From Brevibacterium sp. (GTDB lineage Bacteria > Actinomycetota > Actinomycetes > Actinomycetales > Brevibacteriaceae), in assembly GCF_031179145.1 (NCBI RefSeq), contig NZ_JAPSIB010000005.1, positions 106,500 to 170,499 of the forward strand: DNA of 64,000 bases, written 5' to 3'. The translations under genes were made by a program, and so were the position numbers. This document shows, piece after piece, positions 17,376 through 39,389 of the stretch (positions within the stretch are counted from its first letter, which is position 1; every line of letters starts with the position of its first letter). Below the pieces are notes generated by a model. It had not been told where the DNA came from. It saw only the letters and a program-made list of their open reading frames with translations, and did no database searches.

Positions 17376-17378
17376 CCA

Positions 17379-20064: not shown

Positions 20065-21123
20065 TTAGTGGTGCTCGATCAGTGCGTTTGCAACTGCGTG
20101 CGCGGCGTTTCCTTGTCCATATGGGGAATTGCGTTGCTCTACCCCCGTAGGACGAGTTGCGGTTTGGGACAGTCGAGTGAGATCGGGATCGAGAACGTTC
20201 CAGCCGTCAGCTAGCGTTTCCACCCACTCAGTTTCGGTGCGAAGGGTCGTGCACGGCGTGCCGAGAAGAAAAGCTTCCTTTTGTAAACCTCCCGAGTCCG
20301 TAATAACTCCTACTGCTGCAACTACTGCCTTCACAACTTCCGGATAGCTCAGCGGTTCGACGAGACGCAGTGCTCCTCCGTTGAGCGGTATTCCGAACTC
20401 GGCAGCTTTTGCGACTAAACGCGGATGTGCAGGCAACACAACTGGAAGGGGAAGATCACGTAGGGCTTTTAGAACCGTCTCGAGACGCATTGCGTCGTCA
20501 GTGTTCTCAGCTCTGTGGATTGTGGCGATCAGGAAGCGTTCGTCTGGTTCAACGCCAGGCACTGGAGCATCGGAATTCTGAACCGCATCCCTGGTTAGGT
20601 AACAGACATCCACCATGACGTCTCCCACCAACACCGTGCGTTCACTCAGTCCCTCTTTTGCAAGATTTTGGGCCGCCGTTGCAGATGGGGCTAGGCAGAC
20701 GTCCGCTGCGTGATCTGTGAGCACTCGATTGTGTTCTTCAGGCATGCTCCGGTTGTATGATCGGAGGCCCGCCTCGAGATGCGCAAGGGGCAGGTGGAGT
20801 TTCACTGCAGAAAGCGCCCCTGCGATAGTGGAGTTAGTATCGCCGTAAACTAGTACCCAATCCGGTTGGAAGCTCATTAAAACCGAGTCCATTTGCGCTA
20901 GCATGCCACCTGTTTGGACCCCGTGGGTGCCGGAACCGACGCCTAGGTGTACATCCGGATCGGGGATGGACAGATCTTGGAAGAAGGCATTTGACATGTT
21001 CATGTCGTAATGTTGCCCAGTGTGGATGATTTTGTGATCCACGCCCAGATCTTCGAATACTCGAGCTATAGGAGCAAGCTTCACGAACTGGGGGCGGGCA
21101 CCGACGATGCTGACTACGCGCAT
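20065..21123 (-). CDS. UDP-GlcNAc 2-epimerase family enzyme (WbpI-like candidate)
   Basis: A 352-residue non-hydrolysing 2-epimerase of the WecB/WbpI family. The start MRVVSIVGARPQFVKLAP, the H-x-GQHYDMNMS segment, the pattern YGDTNSTIAGAL, HLEAGLRS followed by PEE.NR, and TDSGGLQKEA are family hallmarks. It is clearly different from the second epimerase at 29074 (GTRPEAIK type). Since the neighbouring genes make up a UDP-2,3-diacetamido-glucuronic acid pathway, this copy probably does the last step, C2 epimerisation to the manno form as WbpI does. It overlaps the upstream glycosyltransferase by a single base (TAATG), so it belongs to the same minus-strand operon (27391 down to 20065). The substrate assignment is inferred from context. 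Confidence 0.85.
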   Translation of the reverse strand: MRVVSIVGARPQFVKLAPIARVFEDLGVDHKIIHTGQHYDMNMSNAFFQDLSIPDPDVHLGVGSGTHGVQTGGMLAQMDSVLMSFQPDWVLVYGDTNSTIAGALSAVKLHLPLAHLEAGLRSYNRSMPEEHNRVLTDHAADVCLAPSATAAQNLAKEGLSERTVLVGDVMVDVCYLTRDAVQNSDAPVPGVEPDERFLIATIHRAENTDDAMRLETVLKALRDLPLPVVLPAHPRLVAKAAEFGIPLNGGALRLVEPLSYPEVVKAVVAAVGVITDSGGLQKEAFLLGTPCTTLRTETEWVETLADGWNVLDPDLTRLSQTATRPTGVEQRNSPYGQGNAAHAVANALIEHH

Positions 21124-23372
21124 TATGAAGCGGCCTCTCGTCCAGGGGTTTGGTATGAAATGTTATCAGTAAGCCTAGCGTTAGGCTGTTCCAGGAGGTC
21201 TTTCCTTACGACTGCCGCGCGGGCCTTCCATGATTCTTTCTCGTGTAGGTTTGTCCAGTCCGCTTCGTCCAAACCGAAATTCGATTCGAATGTATTGAGT
21301 GCAGTCGTGACCGATTCTGCTGCGCGGTCGACGACTGCTCCAGCCCTGTACGTTTCAATCAGACCTGCCGGGGAAGAGTTTCGATAGACCAATGCCGGAA
21401 TCCTCTTCTCGAGGTAGCTCAGCACCTTGAGCGGAAAGCTGGCAAAGCCGTACTCCGAGTCCAAAAGCGCCAGGCCCACTGCCGTGCCCTCGGTCGCGGG
21501 GAGATTGGCGAACTCGCCGCACTCGATTTGAACCCTGTGATGCGGCAGGTGCGAGGTCACCTGACGCGCGACAGCTTCGTCCTCGGCACGCACTGTCAAG
21601 TGCAATTGCCATTCGTTGTCACAGTCAGCCAACGCCTTCATCGCTGTCCGGAGCTCGTAGACGCCGCCGAGCCCACCGGTGTAAAAAACGTGGAGGGCTC
21701 CGTGTTGTGCAGAGTGAGAGCGCGGAGCCCCCAAGCAATTTGAAGAATCGATGCCGGGAGGTAGTGGTTTCCAAATAACGGTCTCCCCGTCGAAACTCCT
21801 GCGGAGAAGCTCATCAAACATGCGCGACGCTTCCCTTGAGGGAGCGTACATTATATCCGCGAGATCCCTCATATCTTCGAGCTCCGCGAGGCCGGCTTGA
21901 CGCAACTCGTCAAGACCATCTCCAGCTTGGGAAACAGAACTGTTAGGGTCAAGCCAATGGAAATCTCGTACGTACCACGCGAACCGGAGCCCGCATTTCC
22001 GTAGTTCACGTACACCTTCCCTGAGCGCGACTCGAGATTCCAGCGGCATAGGAGCCGTCGAGTTCTCCCCGTACCCGAAGCGGGGTTCTGCCCCTAAACG
22101 TACGAGGTTTATAGCGCCGTGCAGTCTTCGACGAAGCAAGTTCAGGTTGGAAGTCATTCTCACAAGAGGAACGCCGGGCTCTTCGAATGCCTGTGACATC
22201 GCTCTAATCCGTTGCGGACGGGCACCGTCATTACGGTTTTCTATTGCCGCTGTAGAGAAGAACAGATCGAATTCGTGTTGCTCAATGTCGACGACGGTCT
22301 CTTCGTGCCAATCGGGAAGTTCTTTAGCAGCGGCGGCCTCGAACTTCGTCCGAAACTCACTGGCGGAGGGAACGGATAGCCCACTGCTCTCAGGTGCCGT
22401 CTCGTGGTCTCGCACAGCAGTGGCAACCCGCTCAGCGAGCGCAGCCCCGCGGGCTATCCGTTGTTCATCGAGCTGCAGGCGGCGTGCCACCGCAGTATTC
22501 TCGATAGTCGCCTCAGCAAAGACTTCAACCGATTGGTAGAGCAGTGCGGCCCCCGCGAAAAAGTGATGTCCACCCTTGCCGATGAGTACCGCATGAGAAA
22601 TCCCGCGCGGTACGCGGCTCTTTACCGCGTCGCTCCAGCTCCTTCCCAGCTTCATATCATCTTCGGTATACAGCTGGTCGGCCGGGCAAACTTCTGACCT
22701 CCCGCCGGCCTGAGATATCGCGTCTTGCAAAATTTGTGAAATGCGTTCTTCAGCCGGAGATTGCTGCTCATGTGACGTCAGAATCGCGACGAACGCTGCT
22801 GCCGTTCTCTCCACCTGCTGCGCGTACAGGATCGGACGGGGAGCCAAAAGATGCGGCCGATCCGAACCGTGCGCACAAGCCTTGTCCATGGCAACAGTGC
22901 TATCGAACCACAATCGATCGCAAGACGAGAAGGCGCCGAGGAGCCGATTCTGACGAACTTTGTTGCTAAACCGGAAGTCGAGTTCGTGATGCAGGAACAC
23001 GCCCTCGATTGGCATATCTGGTAGTGATTCTCGAACCGCGTATACAGCTTCTGACCCCACTGCAATAGCGCGTGTCGCACGCAAGTTCTTTGCTGTGGTG
23101 CGGAGAGCATTCCCCGACGTGCTCGGATGCTGGTTCAGCCATACAACAGCGCACGCTTCTTTCCAAGCAGTCTGGGCGCTCTCAGTTAGAACGACTTGAG
23201 CTGGCCCCACACCCGCCAGCACCAGAAGTGGGCGCTCACTTGAACCGTGCGTAGCTCGCCCGCGAGGGACCAGATCAATCATCTTGCTACGCATCTCGAC
23301 TATCCAGTCGGCTACGTGCCGTCTCACTGTTTGTGGACAGTTCGATTGCTGATGAGGGCTATTCGCCGCCAC
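21123..23372 (-). CDS. Large glycosyltransferase-like protein
   Basis: A 749-residue protein whose GTG start at 23372 overlaps the end of the dehydrogenase gene by 14 bases; an internal ATG at residue 28 is an alternative. The N-terminal 300 residues read as a Rossmann-like domain (RPLLVLAGVGPAQVVLTES) with a helical stretch. The C-terminal half resembles a GT-B enzyme: MYAPSREASRMF, HVFYTGGLGGVYELRTAM at the start of the donor domain, and SEYGFASFPLKVLSYLEKRIPALVY where the nucleotide-sugar helix lies. It matches the style of the other long double-module glycosyltransferases here. It lies between two genes for uronic acid synthesis and may be the transferase for that sugar. No exact family is recognised. 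Confidence 0.7.
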   Translation of the reverse strand: MAANSPHQQSNCPQTVRRHVADWIVEMRSKMIDLVPRGRATHGSSERPLLVLAGVGPAQVVLTESAQTAWKEACAVVWLNQHPSTSGNALRTTAKNLRATRAIAVGSEAVYAVRESLPDMPIEGVFLHHELDFRFSNKVRQNRLLGAFSSCDRLWFDSTVAMDKACAHGSDRPHLLAPRPILYAQQVERTAAAFVAILTSHEQQSPAEERISQILQDAISQAGGRSEVCPADQLYTEDDMKLGRSWSDAVKSRVPRGISHAVLIGKGGHHFFAGAALLYQSVEVFAEATIENTAVARRLQLDEQRIARGAALAERVATAVRDHETAPESSGLSVPSASEFRTKFEAAAAKELPDWHEETVVDIEQHEFDLFFSTAAIENRNDGARPQRIRAMSQAFEEPGVPLVRMTSNLNLLRRRLHGAINLVRLGAEPRFGYGENSTAPMPLESRVALREGVRELRKCGLRFAWYVRDFHWLDPNSSVSQAGDGLDELRQAGLAELEDMRDLADIMYAPSREASRMFDELLRRSFDGETVIWKPLPPGIDSSNCLGAPRSHSAQHGALHVFYTGGLGGVYELRTAMKALADCDNEWQLHLTVRAEDEAVARQVTSHLPHHRVQIECGEFANLPATEGTAVGLALLDSEYGFASFPLKVLSYLEKRIPALVYRNSSPAGLIETYRAGAVVDRAAESVTTALNTFESNFGLDEADWTNLHEKESWKARAAVVRKDLLEQPNARLTDNISYQTPGREAAS

Positions 23373-24657
23373 CGATTACCAACCGCCGGACACCGCGCCA
23401 CTTTGCCGCGTCAGTCAAATTGCGTCCGTCCACCAGCACTCGCACTCCTGGGAATGAATCGTCATTGAGGTCACGATACTCTGGGTGATCCGCCTGCAGC
23501 ACGAGCCCATCGGCTACATCCCCGACTTGGGCGGGTTCGAAATTGAATGCTCGAAGCTCATCGTCACCGTACATGGGGTCGTGCACAGATACGATCGCGC
23601 CGCGCTCCTTGAGCAACGATACCGTCGGGAATACGCCGGAAAACGCTGTCTCCTTGACACTGCCCCGGTAAGAAGCGCCAAGCACCACTATGCGCTTGCC
23701 CTGCAGGTCACCCAGTTCCCCCTCGAGCAGTTGCACAGCATGTGCCGGCATGTTCATATTGGCTTCTCGAGCGGTACGCACAATGGTCGCTTGCGGGTCG
23801 TTGTACAGGTACAGGCGCGGATACACGGGGATGCAATGGCCGCCGACGGCGATGCCAGGTAGATGGATATGGCTGAAGGGCTGCGAGTTTGATGCCGCGA
23901 TAACCTTGTAAATATCGATCGAGTTCTGCTCCGCGAACTGGGCGAACTGGTTTGCAAGCCCGATATTGACGTCGCGATAGGTAGTTTCAGCCAGCTTCGC
24001 CATTTCGGCGGCTTCTGCCGTGCCCAAGTTCCATACGCCGTTGACTTCGGGAGCCAGGTCAGGTCGTTCGTCAAAGTCAAGAACGGATCGGTAGAAGTCC
24101 ATCGCACGTTGCGTTCCTTCTGACCCGAGGCCGCCCACAAGTTTGGGATACTTGCGCAGGTCCTCGAAAACACGGCCAGTGAGCACGCGCTCGGGCGAAA
24201 ATGCAAGGAAGAAGTCTTCACCTTCGATGAGTCCCGAAATTTCCTCGATCATCGGCTTCCATCGCTTGCGAGTTGTGCCCACAGGAAGTGTCGTTTCGTA
24301 TGAGATCAAGGTTCCCGGGGAGAGATGTTCGGCTAGCGAACGAGTGGCGTTCTCCATCCACTTGAAATCCGGCTGCCAAGTCTCGTCGTTGACAAACAAG
24401 GGAACAACGATGACGATGGCGTCGCTCCCGGGGATTCCATCCGAATACTCGGTCGTCGCGCGGATAGTGCCGGCCTCACGTGATTCGCTGAGTTTCCTCT
24501 GCAGGTCGAATTCCCCTGGGAATGGCTCAACTCCGGCGTTCACTGAGTCGACGACTCCTTGCTGGACGTCGACTCCCACGACGTCATGCCCTTTGGATGC
24601 AAATTGCACGGCAAGCGGAAGGCCGATCTTCCCGAGTCCGATGACGCTGATTCTCAC
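23359..24657 (-). CDS. Nucleotide-sugar dehydrogenase (UDP-GlcNAc 6-dehydrogenase, WbpA-like)
   Basis: Oxidises C6 of a UDP-N-acetylhexosamine to the uronic acid with two NAD+. The 432-residue protein has the NAD-binding start VIGLGKIGLPLAVQFA, a middle domain containing AFSPERVLTGR, the conserved segment RDVNIGLANQFAQFAE and the active-site segment PGIAVGGHCIPVYP with the catalytic Cys. The GTG at 24657 is chosen because it follows a GGAGAGAAGAAGAGG-like purine run and leaves 28 bases after the previous gene. With the next three genes upstream it reproduces the P. aeruginosa wbpA-wbpB-wbpE-wbpD set, so UDP-GlcNAc is the likely substrate; a UDP-ManNAc dehydrogenase cannot be excluded. Confidence 0.88.
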   Translation of the reverse strand: MRISVIGLGKIGLPLAVQFASKGHDVVGVDVQQGVVDSVNAGVEPFPGEFDLQRKLSESREAGTIRATTEYSDGIPGSDAIVIVVPLFVNDETWQPDFKWMENATRSLAEHLSPGTLISYETTLPVGTTRKRWKPMIEEISGLIEGEDFFLAFSPERVLTGRVFEDLRKYPKLVGGLGSEGTQRAMDFYRSVLDFDERPDLAPEVNGVWNLGTAEAAEMAKLAETTYRDVNIGLANQFAQFAEQNSIDIYKVIAASNSQPFSHIHLPGIAVGGHCIPVYPRLYLYNDPQATIVRTAREANMNMPAHAVQLLEGELGDLQGKRIVVLGASYRGSVKETAFSGVFPTVSLLKERGAIVSVHDPMYGDDELRAFNFEPAQVGDVADGLVLQADHPEYRDLNDDSFPGVRVLVDGRNLTDAAKWRGVRRLVIGGGE

Positions 24658-24685
24658 GATCTGTGCCTCTTCTTCTCTCCGTCGT

Positions 24686-25678
24686 TCAAGACAGGTTGAC
24701 AGTTGTTCTGGTTGTACTGGACTCGAGGATGGCCTCACACACTCGGAGCACCTCAGCTCCTTGTTGCAACGTGACAATTTCGCGAGTGCTGTCGCCGATG
24801 ATCGCATCGCGGAGGTATTCGTGCTCTACCCGCAGCGGCTCTGGCTTCGGGAAGGCGAACCGGGTGATATTCCCCTCTGCAACGCCGCGAAAGTGCGACA
24901 TTTCCTCCCACTCCGAGTTCACTGACGCATTTGCGTAGAACGTCAGATCGGAGGTGAGGGTGTCGGCGACGAACATTCCACCTTCGCCAACGACTGTAGT
25001 TCGCCGCTCCTTCGTCGGCGTCAGCCAGTTGACGAGATGATTCACTGTCACATCGTTGTTCAACAGCCCAGTAGCGGCGACCATGTCTTCATGCTCCCTC
25101 CCCGACTTGTGCAGTGATTGACTGGCCACACATTTGTATCCGCAGTCGGCTACCCAAACTGTGAGGTCGATATCGTGAGAGGCAAGATCCTTGACCACGC
25201 CGACATCCGCGATCCTGCGTGGGAACGGTCCCTGCCTGCTGGTCGAGATTTGATAGATATCGCCGAGGTCACCTGACTTCAACCGACGGCGCAATTCCTG
25301 CAGCGACGCGTTGTAGCGCTCGATATGACCAACCGCCCCAACTAACCCTGCGGCTTCGAAGAGTTCGGCGAGCTCAACTGCCTCTGTGTACGTTCCTGCT
25401 AGCGGCTTCTCGATCAGCGCATGCACTCCAGCAGCAGCCAGCTTCTTACCGACTTCATAATGGAGATGAGTTGGTACAGCTACCACGCAGTAATCGATAC
25501 CGTATTCGATCAGCGAATCAATATCGGAAAACACCGGCAGGTCTCCCGCTACGCCGTGTGGATCACCGAAGGAGTCCGCTAGAGCGACAAGATCGACGCC
25601 CTCCAAGGTATGCAGAATCCGAGCATGATGGCGTCCCATCATGCCTAAGCCGATCAATCCGGCTCTCAAGTTGCCCAT
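24686..25678 (-). CDS. Gfo/Idh/MocA oxidoreductase (UDP-GlcNAcA 3-dehydrogenase, WbpB-like)
   Basis: A 330-residue NAD-dependent oxidoreductase. The Rossmann motif GLIGLGMMGRHHARIL (residues 7-22), the conserved EKPLAGTY (the Lys of the EKP motif is central to catalysis) and the GHIERYNA segment containing the family histidine are present. The ATG at 25678 is chosen because it starts one base after the aminotransferase stop and puts the nucleotide-binding fold at the N-terminus. In the WbpB/WlbA pathway such an enzyme oxidises C3 of UDP-GlcNAcA to a ketone, which the aminotransferase next door then aminates. The gene order and partners support that role here. Confidence 0.88.
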   Translation of the reverse strand: MGNLRAGLIGLGMMGRHHARILHTLEGVDLVALADSFGDPHGVAGDLPVFSDIDSLIEYGIDYCVVAVPTHLHYEVGKKLAAAGVHALIEKPLAGTYTEAVELAELFEAAGLVGAVGHIERYNASLQELRRRLKSGDLGDIYQISTSRQGPFPRRIADVGVVKDLASHDIDLTVWVADCGYKCVASQSLHKSGREHEDMVAATGLLNNDVTVNHLVNWLTPTKERRTTVVGEGGMFVADTLTSDLTFYANASVNSEWEEMSHFRGVAEGNITRFAFPKPEPLRVEHEYLRDAIIGDSTREIVTLQQGAEVLRVCEAILESSTTRTTVNLS

Positions 25679-25679
25679 G

Positions 25680-26792
25680 TCACGCTCCTGCCCGTACGAC
25701 GGAGTTGACGCCATTCACGATGCGCTCGAGATCGCCTTTACCGAGTCTGGGGTGGACCGGCAGGGAAAGGCATTCCTCGGCCGCTCGCTCAGTCGTCGGT
25801 AGCTCGAGCTCCGGCGCGAAATCAACCAGAGACGGCAATCTGTGATTCGGCACTGGATAGTAGACACCTGTCCCGATATTGTGCTCGTCTTTGAGTACGT
25901 TGGCAATCTGATTACGGTCGTCTGCGCTTGCGCCATCGATGCGGACCGTGTACTGGTGATAGACATGCTTGCGCCCCTCCGGCACGGGCGGTGTCACGAC
26001 GCCTACCAGGCCATCATCGAGTGCAGCAGCGTTAGACTGACGGACGGCTGTCCATTCAGCCACTTGTTGCAACTGAGCGCGACCGATAGCTGCGTGCACG
26101 TCGGTCATGCGGTAGTTGAACCCGACAACTTCGTTCTCATAGCGTCGTTCCATACCCTGGTTTCGGTAAACACGAACGAGTCGCAAAAGTTCCTCATCGG
26201 TTGCCGACACCATACCGCCTTCGCCGGAGGTCATGTTCTTCGTGGGATAGAGCGAAAAGGCTCCGAACATCCCGAATGTCCCTACGTGCTGGCCTCTGAA
26301 CTCAGCAAGGTGGGCCTGAGCTGCGTCTTCGAAGAACAGCAGGTCGTTCTCATCGCAGACAGCCTGGAGTGCCGCAATATCTGCGGGCAGCCCGTACAGG
26401 TGGACCGCCATGACCGCTCTGGTGCGGGCCGTAATGCTATTTCTCACTGACTCCGGATCGAGTGTGAAGGAATCGATGTCGATATCGGCGAATACCGGTG
26501 TTGCCCCCGAGAGGGCGACAGAATTGGCAGTGGCAGCGAAAGTGAAAGATGGCACGATGACCTCATCGCCCGGTCCGATGCCCGCTGCGAGAAGACCCAA
26601 GTGGAGGGCGGAAGTACCCGAATTCACTGCTACGCAAGTGGTCGTCTTGGCTATCTGCTCGGCGAACTCAGTTTCAAAGGCCGCGACTTCTGGCCCTTGC
26701 GCGATCATGCCCGTCTGGAGCACCGCGTCCACTGCCTTACGCTCGGCGTCACCAATAATCGGCGACGCTGGCAATATGAACTCATCGCTCAT
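25680..26792 (-). CDS. DegT/DnrJ/EryC1/StrS sugar aminotransferase (WbpE-like)
   Basis: A PLP-dependent aminotransferase of 370 residues that would transfer an amino group to the 3-keto sugar made by the neighbouring oxidoreductase. Visible landmarks: VNSGTSALHLGL (phosphate-binding), PSFTFAATAN, FFEDAAQAH (Asp that contacts PLP) and SLYPTKNMTSGEGGM with the Schiff-base Lys. NYRMTDVHAAIGRAQL is typical of the family. It overlaps the upstream acetyltransferase by 4 bases (ATGA) and is one base from the next gene, so the three are translationally coupled. Assignment to the C3 amination step is from the gene set. Confidence 0.9.
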   Translation of the reverse strand: MSDEFILPASPIIGDAERKAVDAVLQTGMIAQGPEVAAFETEFAEQIAKTTTCVAVNSGTSALHLGLLAAGIGPGDEVIVPSFTFAATANSVALSGATPVFADIDIDSFTLDPESVRNSITARTRAVMAVHLYGLPADIAALQAVCDENDLLFFEDAAQAHLAEFRGQHVGTFGMFGAFSLYPTKNMTSGEGGMVSATDEELLRLVRVYRNQGMERRYENEVVGFNYRMTDVHAAIGRAQLQQVAEWTAVRQSNAAALDDGLVGVVTPPVPEGRKHVYHQYTVRIDGASADDRNQIANVLKDEHNIGTGVYYPVPNHRLPSLVDFAPELELPTTERAAEECLSLPVHPRLGKGDLERIVNGVNSVVRAGA

Positions 26793-27391
26793 TCTGTGAC
26801 CTTCTCCAGTTCTTCTGCGTTGTTTATCTCTCGGTAAGTTTCACCTGTGGAGGTATCCAGCCACAGACCGGCGTCGTTTTGTTTGAGAGGCAGGCCGGAC
26901 TTGCCGACCCAATTGATGCGACGTGCAGGTACTCCGGCGACGAGTGCGTGCGGCATAACGTTTCTAGTTACCACAGCACCGGCGGCAACTGTGGCCCATG
27001 CCCCGACTCGGACCGGCGCGACACACACGGCGCGGGCACCAATGGATGCACCTTGCTCGATCTTGACGCCGACAGCATCCCAGTCATTCGCATCCTTCTG
27101 ACTGCCGTCCGCATTGATCGCGCGTGGAAAAGTGTCATTGGTCAGTACAGCTGCCGGTCCGATGAACACGCCGTCCGCGATCTCCGCAGGTTCGTAAACG
27201 AGCGCGTAATTTTGGACCTTCGAGTTGTCGCCGATCTGCACACCCGATCCGATATATGCACCTCTACCAACGACGACGTTCGTGCCGAGACGCGCGTCAT
27301 TACGCACCTGGGCTAAATGCCAGATCGAGGATCCCTCGCCTATGCGAGCACTTGGGTCGACGTCGGCCGATTCTTGAATTCGTACGTTCAT
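26789..27391 (-). CDS. Hexapeptide N-acetyltransferase (WbpD/WlbB-like)
   Basis: A 200-residue acyltransferase with a left-handed beta-helix. The imperfect hexapeptide ladder (ARIGEGSSIWHLAQVRN, then TNVVVGRGAYIG) and the segment KVQNYALVYEPAEIADGVFIGPAAVLTND match the WbpD/WlbB type, including the acidic residues and Asn lining the UDP-sugar site. VAAGAVVTRNVMPHALVAGVPAR closes the helix. It would acetylate the C3 amine of UDP-2-acetamido-3-amino-glucuronic acid using acetyl-CoA. The ATG at 27391 is the first gene start of a minus-strand operon that runs to 20065. Confidence 0.9.
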   Translation of the reverse strand: MNVRIQESADVDPSARIGEGSSIWHLAQVRNDARLGTNVVVGRGAYIGSGVQIGDNSKVQNYALVYEPAEIADGVFIGPAAVLTNDTFPRAINADGSQKDANDWDAVGVKIEQGASIGARAVCVAPVRVGAWATVAAGAVVTRNVMPHALVAGVPARRINWVGKSGLPLKQNDAGLWLDTSTGETYREINNAEELEKVTE

Positions 27392-27600: not shown

Positions 27601-28860
27601 TCAACTCCATACTCCACGAGTATCGTGGACGATCTTCTGCGCCAGGAGCGCAGGGTCGAGATGGACGAACTCGTTGTGGTCAACAAGAAGGAGCACAATG
27701 TCGGCGGCCCCGATGGCAGCAACCGTCTCTTCCAGCGTGACATTGTCCCGCGCGGCCAGTTCCGCAGGCAGCTCTTCGATGTTCGGCTCGACGGCCAGGA
27801 TCGAAGCGTCCGGTAGTTCGTCGGCCAGGCGGCCCACAATGTGGCCGGCAGGGCTCTCGCGTAGATCGTCAACGTTCGGCTTGAATGCGAGACCCAGAGT
27901 TGCGATCTTCACGTGGTCGATGCGACGTGCTTGGAGGAGCAGCTTGTCGAGGACGAATTCGGGCTTCGAATCGTTGACCTTACGGGCGGTCCTTATGAGT
28001 GACGACCTTTCCGGTGAGGCCGCGACGATGAACCAGGGGTCGACGGCAATACAGTGACCTCCAACGCCTGGTCCGGGCTGCAGGATGTTCACTCGGGGGT
28101 GATGATTGGCCAGTTCGATGAGTTCCCACACGTTGATGTCGAGAGAATCTGCGATCATCGACAGCTCATTGGCGAAGGCGATGTTGACGTCGCGGAATGC
28201 GTTCTCCGTCAGCTTCGACATCTCGGCGGTTCGTGCATCAGTCATGAGGAATTCACCCTCACAGAAGAGTTGATAGAGCTCCCGAGCCCGTTCGCCGGCA
28301 TCCCCGTTGAGCGTGCCGACAACTCGGTCGTTGGTGCGCAGTTCGATCATAATTCGACCGGGCAGCACGCGCTCGGGACAGTGGGCGAAGTAGATAGTTT
28401 TCGCCGTATCAGGCTCGAGCGTAAGATCCGGACGTGCAGCTAGCACCGTCTCAGCCAGAAACTCGGTCGTGCCCGGGGGGGAGGTCGATTCGAGGATGAG
28501 GAGTTCGTCGCCTGCGAGCAGCGGAGCGATCTGTTCACCAGCAGTCTTGATGTAGGAGAGATCCGGCTTCTTTCCATCGGAGAACGGAGTGGGAACGGCC
28601 ACGATATAGATATCGGCATGAGGCATCTCCGTCGTGGCCCTGAGTCGTCCCTGAGCCACGGCGCCAGCAACGGTGGTGACCAAATCCGGTTCCACGAAGG
28701 GCACTTCGCCCGCATTGATCACGTCGATGTTCCGCTGGTTGATATCCACCCCGACGACATTCGCCCCTGAACTGGCGAGGACCGCTGCGGTTGGCAATCC
28801 GATGTATCCGAGTCCGATGACTGCAACCGACGGGCGAAGGCTTCCGGGATGGAGGTTCAT
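27601..28860 (-). CDS. wecC: UDP-N-acetyl-D-mannosamine dehydrogenase
   Basis: Oxidises UDP-ManNAc to UDP-ManNAcA with NAD+. The 419-residue protein shows near-verbatim WecC landmarks: AVIGLGYIGLPTAAVLA at the N-terminus, VGVDINQ, EVPFVEPDL, ESTSPPGTTE, HCPERVLPGR, KLTENAFRDVNIAFANELS and NILQPGPGVGGHCIAVDP with the catalytic Cys. The ATG at 28860 places the NAD motif at residue 14. It is divergent from a wecB gene, and together they convert UDP-GlcNAc to UDP-ManNAcA. It is distinct from the dehydrogenase at 23359. Identification as WecC is strong by motif likeness to the E. coli enzyme. Confidence 0.94.
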   Translation of the reverse strand: MNLHPGSLRPSVAVIGLGYIGLPTAAVLASSGANVVGVDINQRNIDVINAGEVPFVEPDLVTTVAGAVAQGRLRATTEMPHADIYIVAVPTPFSDGKKPDLSYIKTAGEQIAPLLAGDELLILESTSPPGTTEFLAETVLAARPDLTLEPDTAKTIYFAHCPERVLPGRIMIELRTNDRVVGTLNGDAGERARELYQLFCEGEFLMTDARTAEMSKLTENAFRDVNIAFANELSMIADSLDINVWELIELANHHPRVNILQPGPGVGGHCIAVDPWFIVAASPERSSLIRTARKVNDSKPEFVLDKLLLQARRIDHVKIATLGLAFKPNVDDLRESPAGHIVGRLADELPDASILAVEPNIEELPAELAARDNVTLEETVAAIGAADIVLLLVDHNEFVHLDPALLAQKIVHDTRGVWS

Positions 28861-29032
28861 CAAATTGTGCTCCAGACTGGTGAGTCGAGGTGGAATCTGT
28901 TCCACCTGAGCACTGCAGACGAGTGCCGGAAAGATAGCAACAACTGAGATGATAGTGAATGACGTCAACGTGATGAAACTTCGGGGCGTGGCGCCTTGAA
29001 TTTGACAGACGCGGAAACCAGAAGATTCCTGT

Positions 29033-29041
29033 TGCTATATT
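29033..29041 (+). promoter_or_regulatory. Extended -10 promoter for wecB
   Basis: TGCTATATT is an extended -10 element. A TTGACA at 29002-29007 lies 28 bases upstream, too far to serve as its -35 box, so the extended -10 type is favoured. The start of transcription would fall inside the inverted repeat at 29042-29058. Confidence 0.4.
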
Positions 29042-29058
29042 GTGGCGGTGACCGCCAC
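29042..29058. promoter_or_regulatory. Inverted repeat overlapping the wecB start region (operator candidate)
   Basis: Perfect 7-base arms GTGGCGG and CCGCCAC with a TGA spacer lie between the extended -10 box and the ribosome site. A bound repressor here would block wecB transcription; an RNA hairpin in the leader is the alternative. Confidence 0.45.
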
Positions 29059-29073
29059 GACCAAGGAGGTTGA

Positions 29074-30225
29074 GTGAGTGCTGATCTGCCGTCAGGCGTC
29101 CCAAAGGTCATGGTCATCTACGGAACTCGTCCAGAGGCCATCAAGGTCGCCCCGGTGATAAAGGCTCTCGACGAAGACGGGGCGCTCTCACCGATCGTCG
29201 TCGTCACCGCTCAGCATCGCGAGATGCTCGACCAAGTCAATGAGGTGTTCGGCATCGCCCCCGACGTCGACCTCAACCTCATGGCACATGGTCAGACGCT
29301 CAACGATATCGCCGGAAGCGTCATCACTAAGCTCGACGCCGTGCTCGTCGAGCACAAGCCCGACGCCGTTCTCGTCCAAGGCGACACGACCACTGTGATG
29401 GGTGCAGCGATCGCGGCATTCAACCGGGAGATTCCGGTCATTCACCTGGAAGCCGGGCTGAGAAGCGGGGATATGAGTTCTCCCTTTCCGGAGGAGGCGA
29501 ACCGGAAGATCGTCTCGCAGATCGCTCGGGTCCACCTCGCCCCGACCGATGTGTCCCGTGAAAATCTCCTCCGCGAGGGGGTTCGCCGCGAGAATATCCA
29601 CGTCATCGGCAACACCGTCATTGATGCGCTCCAATGGGCCGTGTCCCGTCCCGAGAAGCTCACTGCATCCGAGCTCAGGGGTCTCGACGAGGGCGGTCGA
29701 CGAGTTCTCCTTGTCACTACCCACCGGAGGGAGAACCTTGGTGAGAACATGGTGCGCATCGGCAATGCCATGCGCCGGCTCGCGATTTCCTACCCCCATC
29801 TGGTCATCGTGTGGCCTGCGCACAGGAATCCGAAGGTCCGCGCGTCGATTGCGCCGCAAATCGGCGACCTCGACAATGTGATTTCGATAGAACCCGTGGG
29901 ATATGGGGAATTCTCGCACTTGATCGCACGGTCCGACATCGTCCTCACCGACTCCGGTGGCCTCCAGGAAGAGGCCCCTAGTCTGGGCAAGCCGGTGTTG
30001 GTGCTGCGGGAGAACACCGAGCGCCCGGAGGCAGTGGCCGCTGGCACGGCCAAGCTCATCGGCACGGCGGAGGACCGCATTGTTGCCGAGGTGGCGCAGC
30101 TCCTCGACGAAGAATCGGCATACGCCGCCATGGCAAATGCGAGCAATCCTTATGGAGACGGTCAATCTGCCGAACGTAGCGTGTCTATCATCCGAGACCT
30201 ACTCAGCGTTGCTCAGAAGCAGTAA
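29074..30225 (+). CDS. wecB: UDP-N-acetylglucosamine 2-epimerase
   Basis: Converts UDP-GlcNAc to UDP-ManNAc, feeding the divergent wecC product. It has 383 residues with VMVIYGTRPEAIKVAPVI at the N-terminus, TAQHREMLDQV, VQGDTTTVMGAA, HLEAGLRSGDM, PEEANRK and TDSGGLQEEAPSLGKPVLVLR, all typical of non-hydrolysing 2-epimerases. The GTG start at 29074 has a near-perfect ribosome site AAGGAGG at 29063-29069. Its last 13 bases overlap the end of the convergent glycosyltransferase gene. There are two epimerase genes in this window; this one is the classical WecB type and would serve both ManNAcA and any ManNAc needs. Confidence 0.94.
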   Translation: MSADLPSGVPKVMVIYGTRPEAIKVAPVIKALDEDGALSPIVVVTAQHREMLDQVNEVFGIAPDVDLNLMAHGQTLNDIAGSVITKLDAVLVEHKPDAVLVQGDTTTVMGAAIAAFNREIPVIHLEAGLRSGDMSSPFPEEANRKIVSQIARVHLAPTDVSRENLLREGVRRENIHVIGNTVIDALQWAVSRPEKLTASELRGLDEGGRRVLLVTTHRRENLGENMVRIGNAMRRLAISYPHLVIVWPAHRNPKVRASIAPQIGDLDNVISIEPVGYGEFSHLIARSDIVLTDSGGLQEEAPSLGKPVLVLRENTERPEAVAAGTAKLIGTAEDRIVAEVAQLLDEESAYAAMANASNPYGDGQSAERSVSIIRDLLSVAQKQ

Positions 30226-32391: not shown

Positions 32392-34347
32392 GTGGGAAGC
32401 AACTCAGAGCCCATGCCCTCACGCGCCCAACTGCCCGGGAGTATCAGGGCGCTCGTTCTGTCCCTGGGCGACGGCATCGTCTTCGCTTTCCTTGTCGTTG
32501 CGATGACGCTGGTCCGTTACGACTTCCATATGGAACTGGTGAATGTTCCCGGGACGATCGTGTGCTCGGCCATTGGATTTATAGTCTTCCTCGTTTGTGG
32601 GCCGCTCGCGATTTACCGCGGTCGGTATCGTCGCGGGTCGACCGACCAGTTCACGGCGATCATCGGGACTGTGGCGTTGGCAGTTGGGCTGATGTGGGTC
32701 GCCGAGTTCGTTTTTGCCAGTCGGCTTCTCATCCCCACCAGTGTGCCGATCGCTGCCGGTGCGATGATGGTCGTCTTCAAGAGCCTGGAGAACTGGGTCC
32801 GCCGCAACCTGCGTCAGCGCACTCTGTCGACCTCAGGGTCATCTCGACCGACTCTTGTCGTCGGGGCTGGCGATCAGGGAATGCTCGCTCTGGACATGAT
32901 CGAACAGGATAACCGCAACGAATACGTTGCCGTCGGCATTCTCGACGACGACCCGAGCAAACGTCATTTGCGCTACAACGGCACCCGGGTTCTCGGTCCG
33001 ATTTCGGATGTCGCGAATCAGGTTGACCGCACTGGTGCCGGTGTGATCATCGTCGCGATCTCGGATCTTCCTCCGGAGGTGCTCCAGGGCATCGCGTCGA
33101 CTCTCGACTCCCGCCCGGTCGAAATCAAGATCATGCCGAACCTCGAGGAATCCGACTACCTCCGTCCGGCCCCGGACGCGCACGACATGGCCGACCTGCG
33201 TCACCGGAACTTCCGCGACATCAGCCTCGAGGACCTCATAGGTCGTAAGCCGGTCTCAACCAATGTCGAGGATATCTCGTCGGAAATCGCTGGCCGGGTC
33301 GTCCTCGTCACCGGTGCCGGAGGCTCGATCGGCTCCCAGCTGTGCAGACAGGTGGCTCGTTTTGACCCAGCCAGACTGATCATGACCGACCGCGACGAGT
33401 CCGGTTTGCACGCCACTCAGCTCGGACTCGAAGGTGCTGCGCTGCTGACGAGCGAAGACCTCGTGCTGGGTGACCTGCGGGACTCAGGTTTCATCGAAGC
33501 CCTCGTCGCCGAGGTGAAGCCCGACATCATTTTCCACGCTGCAGCACTGAAACACCTGACGTTCCTCGAACGCTTTCCAGAGCAGGCCGTACGCACCAAC
33601 ATCGGTGCGAGCCTCGACCTGCTCGACGCCGCAGTCGCCAACGGCGTCGAAGCATTCGTCCACATCTCGACGGATAAGGCCGCAGGGCCGACTTCAGTCT
33701 TGGGGCGAACGAAGTACTCTATCGAGAGAGCGGTTGCCTCTGTAGCGGCACAATCAGGTCGGAAGTACATGTCTGTGCGCTTCGGCAATGTCCTTGGTTC
33801 CAGAGGGTCAGTCCTCGAAACCTTCGTCGCCCAGGTGGCCGCCGGGGACCCGGTAACGGTCACGGATCCAGAGGCCACTCGCTATTTCATGTCGGCTGAC
33901 GAAGCCTGTGAACTCGTCCTGCAGGCCTCGGCAATCGGCAGTCCGGGAGAGACCCTCGTGCTCGATATGGGCGAGCCGATCAGGATCGACGACCTGGCAA
34001 AAAGGGTCATCGCACTGTCTGGGCATCCCGGTGCCCACATCGTCTACACCGGACTGCGGCCGGGAGAGAAGCTCACAGAATCGCTCCTGTCCTCGGACGA
34101 AGCCGACAGGCGTCCCAACCACCCGCTCATCACTCAGGTGTCGATCTTGCCGATTGACATCGACGCACTGAGGCAAATCGTCAACGCCGCCCGTGACCCA
34201 AAAGTCTATGCTCATCGGGAGGAACTGATTGGCGAGTTGGAGCGGATCGTCGACGGGACCATCGGGATCGAGGCCGGCGAGATGGGCGCGGAGATCGTTG
34301 CCTCGGAGGATGGCTCCGGATCGCAGGACGCCGGGGTAGCCCACTGA
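32392..34347 (+). CDS. Membrane nucleotide-sugar 4,6-dehydratase (CapD/WbpM-like)
   Basis: A 651-residue membrane protein. Residues 20-130 hold four helices, followed by a CoA-binding-like Rossmann domain (TLVVGAGDQGMLALDM, 154-169) and a catalytic SDR domain starting VLVTGAGGSIGSQL (304-317). Such enzymes make UDP-4-keto-6-deoxy-GlcNAc for sugars such as FucNAc, QuiNAc or bacillosamine. The catalytic segment reads STDKAAGPTSVLGRTK; Lys441 is present, but the residue four before it, usually Met or Tyr, is Leu437. The GTG at 32392 has GAGG close by; an ATG at 32413 is an alternative. It begins an eight-gene operon, overlapping the next gene by one base. Product sugar is inferred. Confidence 0.87.
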   Translation: MGSNSEPMPSRAQLPGSIRALVLSLGDGIVFAFLVVAMTLVRYDFHMELVNVPGTIVCSAIGFIVFLVCGPLAIYRGRYRRGSTDQFTAIIGTVALAVGLMWVAEFVFASRLLIPTSVPIAAGAMMVVFKSLENWVRRNLRQRTLSTSGSSRPTLVVGAGDQGMLALDMIEQDNRNEYVAVGILDDDPSKRHLRYNGTRVLGPISDVANQVDRTGAGVIIVAISDLPPEVLQGIASTLDSRPVEIKIMPNLEESDYLRPAPDAHDMADLRHRNFRDISLEDLIGRKPVSTNVEDISSEIAGRVVLVTGAGGSIGSQLCRQVARFDPARLIMTDRDESGLHATQLGLEGAALLTSEDLVLGDLRDSGFIEALVAEVKPDIIFHAAALKHLTFLERFPEQAVRTNIGASLDLLDAAVANGVEAFVHISTDKAAGPTSVLGRTKYSIERAVASVAAQSGRKYMSVRFGNVLGSRGSVLETFVAQVAAGDPVTVTDPEATRYFMSADEACELVLQASAIGSPGETLVLDMGEPIRIDDLAKRVIALSGHPGAHIVYTGLRPGEKLTESLLSSDEADRRPNHPLITQVSILPIDIDALRQIVNAARDPKVYAHREELIGELERIVDGTIGIEAGEMGAEIVASEDGSGSQDAGVAH

Positions 34348-35384
34348 TGGCTCTCCAGTCGCTGGTGATCCTCATCGTGGCCTCCACTGTCACAATGATC
34401 AGCGCTCTTATCGTCTTTCCGTTGATGCGGCGTGCCGGGATTGTCGACATCCCCTCTCATCGATCATCACACACTCAGGTGACCGTACGCGGTGGCGGAA
34501 TCGCCGTTGGTTGCGGAATCACTGCGGCGACCGTGGTCGCGATGATCTGGAACCTCTCCGAGCACGGCGTATTCGGCATCGGCAGCACCTTGATCCCGGT
34601 CGCATTCCTTCTGCTCACCTGGTGCTACTCGACCATCGGGCTGAATGATGACCTCGACTCGCTGCAGCCCATCGGCCGTCTGCTGGGGCAGGTCATACTT
34701 GCCTTGGTATTCAGCGCCTGCATCGCCATATTCTCAACCCACGGAATCGCGCACATCCTCGCATTCACCATCATCGGCGTCAGCGTAGTCAACGCTGCGA
34801 ACTTCGTCGATGGGCTCAACGGCTACGTCGCCGGTTGGACGATTATCACCGGCGCATGGTTCGCTTTTGTCGGCTTCTGGAACGGGGAGAACGACGTCAT
34901 GCTTCTCTCCCTCGCACTGACGGGGGCTGCGGCCGGGTTCCTCCCGTTCAACATTGGTCAGGCCAGGGCCTTCTTGGGCGATACCGGAAGCTACGGCATC
35001 GGGGCCGCGGTGTTCGTCATCGCGGTGTGGCTATTCGTTCTGGGAGTTCCGATCGTCGTCATCATCGCGCCTATGATCTTCGTCCTCTTCGACGTCGGCC
35101 TCACTCTCGTGCTGCGTCTGTTCCGGGGAGAGAACATCTTTCTGCCGCATCGGCAGCACATCTACCAGCGGATCCAGCAGGCAGGTTGGACTCATGGGAG
35201 AGTGTCCCTCTTCCACGCCGCGCTGTGTGTCCTGGCTTGTGTTCTCGCCATCCCGACACTGTTGAGCGGCAATGTCGCAACCACGTATCCGGCACATGTG
35301 TTCTGGGCCGGCCTTCTGGCCCTGTACGTTCTGTTGCCTTTGTGGTTGCGGAAACGCGACGACGCCGGGACGGTGCTTACATGA
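34347..35384 (+). CDS. Undecaprenyl-phosphate sugar-1-phosphate transferase (WecA/TagO-like)
   Basis: An integral membrane enzyme of the MraY/WecA family with about 10 helices and 345 residues. It transfers an amino-sugar 1-phosphate, usually GlcNAc-1-P, from UDP to undecaprenyl phosphate and so starts the polymer chain. Conserved loops are visible: the HxxxxVRGGG motif (HTQVTVRGGG), NAANFVDGLNGYVAG, AFLGDTGSYGIGA and the histidine-rich FLPHRQHIYQRI that defines the polyprenyl transferases. Its start overlaps the dehydratase stop by one base and its stop overlaps the next glycosyltransferase by 4 bases. Pairing with a CapD/WbpM-like enzyme suggests the initiating sugar may be a 6-deoxy-HexNAc rather than GlcNAc itself. 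Confidence 0.9.
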   Translation: MALQSLVILIVASTVTMISALIVFPLMRRAGIVDIPSHRSSHTQVTVRGGGIAVGCGITAATVVAMIWNLSEHGVFGIGSTLIPVAFLLLTWCYSTIGLNDDLDSLQPIGRLLGQVILALVFSACIAIFSTHGIAHILAFTIIGVSVVNAANFVDGLNGYVAGWTIITGAWFAFVGFWNGENDVMLLSLALTGAAAGFLPFNIGQARAFLGDTGSYGIGAAVFVIAVWLFVLGVPIVVIIAPMIFVLFDVGLTLVLRLFRGENIFLPHRQHIYQRIQQAGWTHGRVSLFHAALCVLACVLAIPTLLSGNVATTYPAHVFWAGLLALYVLLPLWLRKRDDAGTVLT

Positions 35385-36733: not shown

Positions 36734-38493
36734 ATCTGCTCTTCGTCGCCCGTCAAATCACCAATGTGACCTCGACGACGTTCTCCCATATCAACGACGA
36801 CCATGTGTTCTTCGGCATGCAGCTGGCGCGACGCTTGCCTGGTCCGTTCTCGCGTCTCGCGGGTCATGCTCTCGGTCGGTTCCCCGGCGATGCGGCTCAG
36901 GCTGCCTCTGCATGGCTGCTCGGCCAGGAGACGAAAGCAAAGGACCTAGTGGCAAATTCGCGGACCCCATCTCGGCTGCTCGGGGAAATCGCACTGAACC
37001 TCGGCCTCCTCGAGCAGGCTGAAGCTATTTCAGATGCGCTGCCCGAAGCTGCCGCACTGAGCTCACGAATCCATTGGACCAAAGGCCAGCTCAACGAGGC
37101 CATCGAAGCTGTGCCAGCTGGAGCTCGCCGAGCGAGGCTCCTCGATGAGCTTCTCTGCCTGCAGCCAGGCTGGTGGCCGCAGGTAACTATTCACGTCACA
37201 GCCCGACCGGCCCATGACTCGGGAGAGGACTCGGCAGCAGGCTCGGTGGGAGAAACCTCCCGACCCGCAGCGCTCCACGTGCTGACGAACTCCCTGCCCC
37301 ATACGCGCTCGGGTTATGCCTACCGCTCGCATGCGATCCTGGCCACCCTGCAGGACGCCGGGCATCGAGTGGCTGCCGTGACTCGGCCCTCCTACCCGGT
37401 GACGATCGGACGGGTGAGTTCGGGACCAGTCGAGACCATTGACGGTATTGACTACTTGCGGCAGGTGCCGCTGCGTCCTCTGCCCACACCCACCGCTCGG
37501 CTGAGCGATCAGGCAAGCTGGATCGTCGCCCAAGCACAGGATCGCGGTGCGCAGATCCTCCACACGACGACGCACTATGTCAACGGTCTGGCCACCGGTG
37601 CAGCCGCTCGAGCAGCCGGGCTGCCCTGGGTCTACGAAGTCCGCGGCGTCCTGGAGGAGACTTGGGCGGCGGCCGGCGGCACTCCGGCCGAGCGTGCCGC
37701 ACGGCGTGCCAGCCAACGCTTCGAACTCATGCGGGCCAAGGAGATCGAGGTTGCGAAGGCCGCCGATGCCGTCATCACACTGGGTGAGACCATGCGCGAG
37801 CATCTGGTCGCAGGCGGAGTCCCGGAGGAATCGATCACTCTTATACCGAACTCGGTCTCCGAAGCCGTCGTGAACGCAAGCATCTCACGTACCCCCTCCG
37901 AGGTGAGAGCCGGTCTCGGCCTGCCCGAAGCTGGCATCTGGGTGGGAACAGCGGCTTCGATCGTGGGCTATGAAGGACTCGACGACCTCGTCGACGCCGT
38001 CATCCTCGCCAGGGACACGGGCATCGATCTGCGCCTACTTATCGCGGGCGATGGTGTCGCCTTGCCGGACCTGCGTGAACGTGCTGGAGCGTTGGGGGAG
38101 AATGCGCTCTTCACCGGAAGAGTGTCACAGGCTGAAGCGATCGAGTATCAGCTCGGCCTTGACGCTATCGTTGTCCCGCGGAAGGACGAACCGGTGTGCC
38201 GGCTGGTCACTCCGATCAAACCGATCGAAGCGATGGGTCTGGCGAGGCCGGTCGTCATCTCAGATCTGCCGGCCCTGAGAGAACTCGTTCCGGACAGTGC
38301 AGGATTGTGCGTGTCCCCCGAAGATCCGGGAGAATTGGCTGACGCACTGTCGCAGTTGGCCTGCGATCATAGTGCGAGATTGAAGTTTGGACGGAATGGA
38401 CGTGAACATGTTCTCGGGACACGGAGGTGGAAGGACATCGGCCGACGGTACGGCCAGACCTATTCCCACCTCGTGGGAGCTGATGCGAAGTGA
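36730..38493 (+). CDS. Glycosyltransferase, GT4 family
   Basis: A 587-residue GT4 enzyme with a helical N-terminal extension of about 180 residues that resembles degenerate tetratricopeptide helices. The glycosyltransferase part begins ALHVLTNSLPHTRSGYAYRS (near 205), continues with LPWVYEVRGVLEETWAA and VITLGETMREHL, and its donor domain includes WVGTAASIVGYEGLDDLV, VPRKDEPVCRLVTPIKPIEAM (E-containing donor motif) and PVVISDLPALRELV. ATGA overlaps on both sides tie it to the preceding GT4 gene and the following ABC permease. It probably elongates the lipid-linked glycan just before export. Confidence 0.87.
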   Translation: MNLLFVARQITNVTSTTFSHINDDHVFFGMQLARRLPGPFSRLAGHALGRFPGDAAQAASAWLLGQETKAKDLVANSRTPSRLLGEIALNLGLLEQAEAISDALPEAAALSSRIHWTKGQLNEAIEAVPAGARRARLLDELLCLQPGWWPQVTIHVTARPAHDSGEDSAAGSVGETSRPAALHVLTNSLPHTRSGYAYRSHAILATLQDAGHRVAAVTRPSYPVTIGRVSSGPVETIDGIDYLRQVPLRPLPTPTARLSDQASWIVAQAQDRGAQILHTTTHYVNGLATGAAARAAGLPWVYEVRGVLEETWAAAGGTPAERAARRASQRFELMRAKEIEVAKAADAVITLGETMREHLVAGGVPEESITLIPNSVSEAVVNASISRTPSEVRAGLGLPEAGIWVGTAASIVGYEGLDDLVDAVILARDTGIDLRLLIAGDGVALPDLRERAGALGENALFTGRVSQAEAIEYQLGLDAIVVPRKDEPVCRLVTPIKPIEAMGLARPVVISDLPALRELVPDSAGLCVSPEDPGELADALSQLACDHSARLKFGRNGREHVLGTRRWKDIGRRYGQTYSHLVGADAK

Positions 38494-39389
38494 ATGAGCC
38501 CACGAATCCGAGCGAAGTCAGGAATCCACTCGGGCTGAGCACGATCCCTTCGGTCTCCAGTGAGGGGCTCGTGCCTGTCGGCAAGCGAACCAGTTTGCGC
38601 AGCTATCTTGCAGCGCTGTGGAACCGTCGACATTTCATCATCGCCGAATCGCGTGCCAAGATGAGCGGTTCGACGCGGAAGAATCTCCTCGGTTACGGCT
38701 GGTTGTTCCTCAACCCATTGCTTTCGGTACTTGCATTTTGGTTCATCTTCGGTTTTATCCTCCAATCCTCCCGGGGCATTGAGAACTTTCTTGGCTATTT
38801 GGTCATCGGTGTCTTCTTCTTCCAGTTCACTGGAAAGAGCATGACCGGTGGAACTGGATCGATCCGCGCAGGTGCCCAGATGATCAAGGGCTTCCAGTTC
38901 CCGCGTGCCGCCCTGCCGATCTCCACTGTGGTGAGGAACTTCCTTGATTTCATCCCCACGGTGGCCGTCATGCTTGTCCTCATCGCGGTCATTCCTCCTG
39001 CCGAAGTGATCACCTGGCGAGTGATCCTCGTCATCCCGGTGATTGCGCTGCAGACGATCTTCAACGTCGGACTCGCGTGCCTGCTGGCCAGGATCGGACA
39101 CAAGATCCCGGACCTGACGAACTTCATGTCCATCGTCAGCCGGTTCTGGCTCTACGGCTCGGGCGTCTTCTTCTCGATTGAAGACCGTCTGGCTGATTAC
39201 CCTGCGATCCTCACGGCGATGCAGTTCAACCCAATGCACGCGTACCTGACTTTGGTGAGAAACTCCCTGCTCTACGGTGTCGACTCACCAGCTTGGTTGT
39301 GGATTTTGGGCACTGTATGGGCATTCGGGTTGCTCATCGTCGGATTCCTGTTCTTCTGGCGAGGGGAGGAGAGCTATGGTCGACTCTGA
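38490..39389 (+). CDS. ABC-2 type transporter permease (TagG/Wzm-like), exporter 2
   Basis: Membrane subunit of the second polymer exporter. It has 299 residues and six helices after a polar N-terminal tail of about 50 residues. NLLGYGWLFLNPLLSVLAFWFIFGF and the end FLFFWRGEESYGRL match the permease at 4147, and the overall layout is the same. The GTG at 38490 overlaps the glycosyltransferase stop by 4 bases, and its own end overlaps the ATPase start by 14 bases. Being inside the operon that begins with the initiating transferase, this exporter is the most likely route for the glycan made by the 32-38 kb genes. Confidence 0.9.
   Translation: MNEPTNPSEVRNPLGLSTIPSVSSEGLVPVGKRTSLRSYLAALWNRRHFIIAESRAKMSGSTRKNLLGYGWLFLNPLLSVLAFWFIFGFILQSSRGIENFLGYLVIGVFFFQFTGKSMTGGTGSIRAGAQMIKGFQFPRAALPISTVVRNFLDFIPTVAVMLVLIAVIPPAEVITWRVILVIPVIALQTIFNVGLACLLARIGHKIPDLTNFMSIVSRFWLYGSGVFFSIEDRLADYPAILTAMQFNPMHAYLTLVRNSLLYGVDSPAWLWILGTVWAFGLLIVGFLFFWRGEESYGRL

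Follow-up and report, generated by a model that had tools for sequence, protein, structure and literature searches.

A predicted UDP-ManNAc3NAcA operon in a Brevibacterium surface-polymer locus

A run of six minus-strand genes in a Brevibacterium sp. genome raises the question of which sugar nucleotide the genes make, and whether they make it by the WbpA-WbpB-WbpE-WbpD-WbpI route of Pseudomonas or by a route with the same chemistry and other enzymes. The genes lie at 20065-27391 of a 64,000-nucleotide stretch of contig NZ_JAPSIB010000005.1 (hereafter the window), which belongs to a 3.83-Mb assembly of 44 contigs. The operon very probably makes uridine diphosphate (UDP)-2,3-diacetamido-2,3-dideoxy-D-mannuronic acid (UDP-ManNAc3NAcA): starting from UDP-N-acetylglucosamine (UDP-GlcNAc), C3 would be oxidised, aminated and N-acetylated, C6 oxidised and C2 epimerised, and neighbouring glycosyltransferases and an ATP-binding cassette (ABC) exporter would place the sugar in an acidic Brevibacterium surface polymer. 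An earlier note, made from the sequence alone, had proposed these five chemical steps and this product for an actinobacterial host; the host is indeed an actinobacterium, and the steps and product are supported by the substrate residues of the epimerase and by the co-occurrence of the genes. The locus is thus an apparently complete pathway of a known sort in a new host, Brevibacterium.

The enzyme set and its epimerase

In order of transcription, the operon encodes a hexapeptide N-acetyltransferase resembling WbpD/WlbB (NAT, 26789..27391), a DegT/DnrJ/EryC1 sugar aminotransferase predicted to act at C3 (AT, 25680..26792), a Gfo/Idh/MocA oxidoreductase predicted to be a UDP-sugar 3-dehydrogenase (GFO, 24686..25678), a UDP-sugar 6-dehydrogenase (DH6, 23359..24657), a 749-amino-acid (749-aa) probable glycosyltransferase (21123..23372) and a non-hydrolysing 2-epimerase, predicted to act on UDP-GlcNAc3NAcA (EPI, 20065..21123). 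The open reading frames (ORFs) of NAT, GFO and DH6 remain open to 27505, 25714 and 24807, and homologue length places their likely starts at ATG 27391, ATG 25678 and GTG 24657, respectively. All five enzymes fall in the expected superfamilies of Pfam and NCBIfam (EPI, PF02350, 299 bits; DH6, TIGR03026, 305 bits; GFO, Gfo/Idh/MocA, 71 bits; AT, DegT PF01041, 395 bits; NAT, hexapeptide acetyltransferase, 76 bits), each with a strong match. The layout described earlier, with four contiguous genes from NAT to DH6 and EPI set apart behind the 749-aa protein, holds.

EPI is the best-supported member of the set and appears to be of the WbpI type. Among solved structures, the Thermus thermophilus UDP-GlcNAc3NAcA 2-epimerase scores highest (8sxv, 343 bits), followed by a different enzyme labelled UDP-GlcNAc 2-epimerase (4neq, 259 bits) and by others at no more than 162 bits; identity is 49% to the Thermus enzyme versus 31.5% to the WecB-type epimerase of the same locus (29074..30225, plus strand). 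According to the text of PMC10622841 drawn on here, the Thermus enzyme has Trp307 in place of the arginine of UDP-GlcNAc epimerases, Tyr96 in place of His/Gln and Ala18 in place of Leu/Met. Equivalents of Tyr96 and Trp307 are both present in EPI, and the combination Leu-Tyr-Trp at the three substrate positions occurs in 80/80 named actinobacterial loci (collected with flanks of at most 8 kb on each side of EPI), while six of six distant relatives (two haloarchaeal, Pseudomonas, Priestia, Sulfitobacter and Deinococcus) have Ala-Tyr-Trp. As an internal control, the locus also encodes a WecB, which has Val-Gln-Arg at these positions; Gln and Arg also recur in seventeen WecB-type sequences of relatives and in two more distant ones.

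NAT is predicted to be of the WbpD/WlbB type: its best solved relative is a lipopolysaccharide biosynthesis acetyltransferase (3mqg, 104.7 bits, E 7e-29), and it is 38-39% identical to the acyltransferases in three plasmid clusters whose oxidoreductases are of the WbpB type. For the 749-aa protein, the Pfam and NCBIfam scan gave no match; residues 382-726, in its C-terminal half, resemble four glycosyltransferase group 1 ORFs, two of which exceed the Pfam cut-off, and a low-confidence model (mean predicted local distance difference test score, pLDDT, 56) gave weak matches to GT-B folds. The protein is therefore probably a glycosyltransferase, as the earlier note had proposed, and of the GT-B type. 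Nearly full-length homologues were found in just two of the 80 named loci, both from Brevibacterium (L075, 54% identity; L074, 31%).

Co-inheritance and related loci

The nearest EPI loci in named genomes are those of Brevibacterium sp. XM4083 (73%) and B. renqingii REN4 (71%). Within a genus sample of 37 genomes, EPI at 71% identity or more was present in two, its own genome included. In one genome of the same genus (G033), the pathway gene order and most neighbours are kept and the pathway enzymes are 71-85% identical; conservation is lower in the 749-aa protein (54%) and in five glycosyltransferases (46-69%).

Across a sample of 59 relatives, close homologues (lowest identities 58% for EPI, 52% for GFO, 57% for DH6 and 58% for NAT, with the next full matches at 41%, 29%, 41% and 45%) were counted in 12, 14, 14 and 15 genomes, respectively. 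The GFO and DH6 sets were identical and the 12 EPI genomes fell inside every other set; one genome (G052) had NAT without the other three. The same nesting was seen in a sample of 246 genomes of the class, for which cut-offs were set after the first sample (EPI, E 1e-80; DH6, E 1e-110): GFO was found in 52 genomes, DH6 in 48, all of them with GFO, and EPI in 36, all of them with both. The module is thus widespread, GFO and DH6 being present together in 48 of the 246 genomes; 12 of these 48 lack an EPI match at the cut-off, as would be expected if the gluco sugar is used there. Such counts are inflated by relatedness, yet many families are represented among the genomes. That these genes are again found together elsewhere in the order and the class, in other families, argues that the grouping is not due to chance.

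Near EPI in the 80 named loci, DH6 was found in 67, GFO in 44, NAT in 43 and AT in 41. All five genes stand together in just 25 of the 80 within the flanks of at most 8 kb, and this is one of several points that weigh against the proposed product and pathway. The others concern the enzymes themselves: the equivalent of Ala18 is Leu in EPI, so that the third published substrate residue is not matched, and Leu at this position also occurs in some UDP-GlcNAc epimerases; in addition, the best WbpE sequence scores 208.9 bits with AT, and five distinct PDB aminotransferase sequences score higher.

The earlier note had regarded the sugar as best known from Gram-negative O-antigens, a view that must be revised, since both sugar and pathway are already established in actinobacteria and the window locus is a further member. 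In the passages of PMC13274773 used here, Streptomyces griseus is described as carrying a polymer of N-acetylgalactosamine (GalNAc) and ManNAc3NAcA, the latter identified by nuclear magnetic resonance (NMR); the polymer is linked to wall teichoic acid and serves as the receptor for antibacterial umbrella toxins. Its utr genes are assigned there to a P. aeruginosa-like pathway to UDP-ManNAc3NAcA, with a UDP-sugar dehydrogenase, a pair formed by an aminotransferase and an oxidase, an acetyltransferase and a 2-epimerase; by description, these are the same kinds of enzymes as in the window. The same passages describe the glycosyltransferases UtrC and UtrF as TarS- and TarM-like and name no ABC exporter. 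Several other Streptomyces loci carry the same GFO type at 58-59% identity, and the enzyme set with this GFO type, which the window shares with utr-like actinobacterial loci, is conserved across families of the class.

As reported in the text of PMC6598116 drawn on here, the biofilm matrix and cell wall polysaccharide of Cutibacterium acnes HA043PA2 contains two ManNAc3NAcA residues by NMR. All three Cutibacterium genomes with EPI (65-66%) also have DH6 (68-71%) and GFO (64%); these genomes are not C. acnes, and their GFO lies outside the 8 kb around EPI. Combined with the toxin-receptor role in Streptomyces (PMC13274773, in the passages used), the presence of EPI in two of 37 genus genomes suggests that the locus might determine how susceptible its host is to rivals or phages.

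The oxidation enzymes and the order of steps

The proposed one-to-one match to the Pseudomonas enzymes held for the WbpI-type EPI and the WbpD-type NAT and failed for the two oxidation enzymes. A WbpB profile was built from the oxidoreductases of three plasmid clusters (Pseudomonas frederiksbergensis, Sulfitobacter and Deinococcus; mutually 52-61% identical, the latter two at 61% and 52% to the first). Among solved structures, the P. frederiksbergensis sequence matched just two at E 1e-8, both named WbpB: 3oa2 (574 bits) and 3o9z (298 bits). This profile gave no match to the GFO of the window, whereas a profile of three haloarchaeal oxidoreductases scored 133.6 bits; in pairwise comparisons, GFO gave partial alignments of at most 32 bits with the three WbpB-type sequences versus full-length alignments of 110 and 114 bits with two haloarchaeal ones. 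On these comparisons GFO is outside the WbpB subfamily, and direct orthology to WbpB is rejected.

A GFO profile of 28 sequences (the window and 27 named loci) was run against solved structures and found GnnA, the Acidithiobacillus UDP-GlcNAc 3-dehydrogenase (7bvj, 113.8 bits, 25-27% identity to GFO), at the top, with lower scores for the WlbA of Bordetella (85.4 bits) and of Chromobacterium (70.9 bits); between GnnA and WlbA stand five further Gfo/Idh/MocA sequences, myo-inositol dehydrogenases among them. Structural comparison of an AlphaFold model of GFO (pLDDT 90) gave a tie (GnnA Z 37.1, WlbA Z 36.9), and 12 other Gfo/Idh/MocA entries superpose slightly better than either (13 rows of the Foldseek list stand above GnnA). 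The P. aeruginosa and Thermus WbpB were absent among the matches listed in these sequence and structure comparisons. GFO scores 188.6 bits against NF040723, the NCBIfam model of archaeal UDP-GlcNAc 3-dehydrogenase, and because this is under the cut-off of 450, membership is not claimed; the three haloarchaeal homologues likewise fall short at 202-247 bits.

For DH6, identity is 36-37% to three haloarchaeal enzymes and 41% to a Priestia enzyme, whereas it is 29% to an annotated WbpA and 27% to a TviB (pairwise identities to two references of wbp clusters). DH6 therefore seems not to be WbpA-type, being nearer to the haloarchaeal and Priestia enzymes than to these two references. AT has 44-48% identity to haloarchaeal module members versus 34-40% to members of WbpB-type clusters.

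Both oxidation enzymes thus appear to belong to branches other than WbpA and WbpB, matching a module on haloarchaeal plasmids. In Salinibaculum litoreum, Halobaculum salinum and Haloterrigena turkmenica (pHTUR04), three records picked for their oxidoreductase matches, NAT, AT, GFO and DH6 homologues stand in the same order as in the window, and in Salinibaculum an epimerase (47%) lies about 1.1 kb beyond. The haloarchaeal GFO is just 30-32% identical to that of the window; a fourth haloarchaeal record (Halorientalis), picked for its epimerase, had none of the remaining module genes within 9 kb. The P. frederiksbergensis plasmid has a row of annotated wbpA, oxidoreductase, acyltransferase, aminotransferase and epimerase, with the epimerase 45% and the acetyltransferase 39% identical to those of the window; compared with the Pseudomonas route, the operon has the same chemistry, another gene order, a GFO outside the WbpB subfamily and a DH6 with 29% identity to WbpA. 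The passages and listings covered, with few subscription papers among them, contained nothing that places the oxidation enzymes in other branches.

Because the oxidation enzymes are what differs most from the Pseudomonas route, and because the nearest solved relative of GFO acts on UDP-GlcNAc, the comparison suggests, without proof, that C3 is modified before C6 is oxidised. Under the textbook order, by contrast, DH6 would act first on UDP-GlcNAc and GFO would then oxidise C3 of UDP-GlcNAcA in the manner of WbpB and WlbA, which is close to an even prospect. Its product would be that of the Pseudomonas route (PMC10622841, in the text drawn on) and agrees with the P. aeruginosa-like assignment of the Streptomyces genes in the PMC13274773 passages; the GFO model fits WlbA, solved with UDP-GlcNAcA, as well as it fits GnnA, and all 48 DH6 genomes have GFO. 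Against the textbook order stand the higher profile score of GnnA than of either WlbA, the silence of the WbpB profile and, more weakly, two Streptomyces plasmid clusters with GFO (50-51%), AT and an acetyltransferase-like domain and no 6-dehydrogenase within 10 kb.

Somewhat short of an even chance is the broader proposal that actinobacteria and haloarchaea share a second route to 2,3-diacetamido uronic acids, one that modifies C3 first and so inverts the order of Pseudomonas. A GnnA-like GFO would oxidise UDP-GlcNAc itself, AT and NAT would produce UDP-GlcNAc3NAc, and a dedicated DH6 would then act on the diacetamido sugar before epimerisation; the two oxidation enzymes would see different substrates than in Pseudomonas, which would explain why they come from other branches. 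The GnnA/GnnB route of Acidithiobacillus, which makes 2,3-diamino-glucose for lipid A, includes neither C6 oxidation nor C2 epimerisation as described in the passages of PMC8036547 used, unlike the pathway of the window. If the order is indeed reversed, the WbpA and WbpB annotation of these genes would be mechanistically wrong.

Four of the 52 GFO genomes in the class sample lack DH6 at E 1e-110. In three of them NAT and AT flank GFO; two of these are drafts, 86% and 93% complete, and the third (G171; 3 contigs, 100% complete) carries NAT-AT-GFO without a DH6 homologue. Since G171 has two clear matches and one marginal match to UDP-sugar dehydrogenases elsewhere, it is only suggestive on step order. 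The fourth genome (G260) has a weak 46% GFO match with AT alone beside it.

Two observations on these reduced clusters concern possible other uses of a diamino sugar. The G171 trio (L161:9043-11699) has flagellin and FlgK-like genes nearby, a hint that flagellin may be glycosylated with a diacetamido sugar. Additionally, the Streptomyces plasmid mini-clusters (L067:5065-11035 and L068:5412-11008) include genes for a phosphopantetheine-binding protein, a NUDIX hydrolase and a dioxygenase, and could be natural-product clusters with a diamino sugar.

The surface polymer and neighbouring genes

Judged by its gene content, the region is a surface-polymer locus, as had been proposed: it holds two ABC exporter pairs, at 38490..40728 (plus strand; permease NF050109, 46 bits; ATPase NF010065, 164 bits) and at 4147-5770, both nearest to teichoic acid/galactan exporters and below the cut-offs. 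The window also holds a WecA/MraY-family sugar-phosphate transferase (34347..35384, plus strand; PF00953, 91.5 bits), a 4,6-dehydratase-like protein and many glycosyltransferases. By analogy, a teichuronic-type polymer, the kind envisaged by the earlier note, is plausible; none of the literature titles among the matches listed concerned Brevibacterium wall polymers.

Less likely than not is the alternative that the sugar goes to a loose capsule or exopolysaccharide and not to a wall-bound teichuronic acid. Consistent with a loose polymer, the C. acnes polysaccharide is ascribed to biofilm matrix as well as cell wall (PMC6598116, in the text drawn on), the exporters score below curated teichoic acid export cut-offs and no wall ligase family was found among the scanned part of the window proteins, whereas the PF04464 glycerophosphotransferase in the same region (45481-47562) and the joining of the Streptomyces polymer to wall teichoic acid in the PMC13274773 passages argue for wall attachment. 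The glycerophosphotransferase points to a teichoic acid component, and the two exporter pairs suggest either that there are two surface polymers or that a single locus was assembled from two.

Adjoining the operon at 27601-30225 is a pair of genes for a parallel route to UDP-N-acetylmannosaminuronic acid (UDP-ManNAcA), which comprises a WecC-type UDP-ManNAc dehydrogenase (27601..28968, minus strand; NF008286, 562.8 bits, cut-off 459) and the WecB-type UDP-GlcNAc 2-epimerase that served as control (TIGR00236, 457 bits); the polymer may therefore hold two different mannosaminuronic acids. It is very unlikely that EPI is itself a redundant UDP-GlcNAc 2-epimerase and that the operon ends at the gluco sugar UDP-GlcNAc3NAcA, as in Streptomyces antibioticus: EPI passes the TIGR00236 wecB model at 268 bits and has Leu at position 18, and the 12 genomes with GFO and DH6 and no EPI match allow that a gluco product may be used elsewhere, but EPI has the Tyr96 and Trp307 equivalents, is closer to the Thermus enzyme than to WecB and, in both genome samples, occurs only where the module does, and a simple redundant WecB is rejected because the same locus holds a true WecB with Gln and Arg at the diagnostic positions.

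Scans of the window gave no Rfam family at the gathering threshold and no tRNA. At 16740-18521, a gene for a PIG-L deacetylase is followed by one for a GNAT-WbqC fusion protein, possibly providing further N-modification of a sugar.

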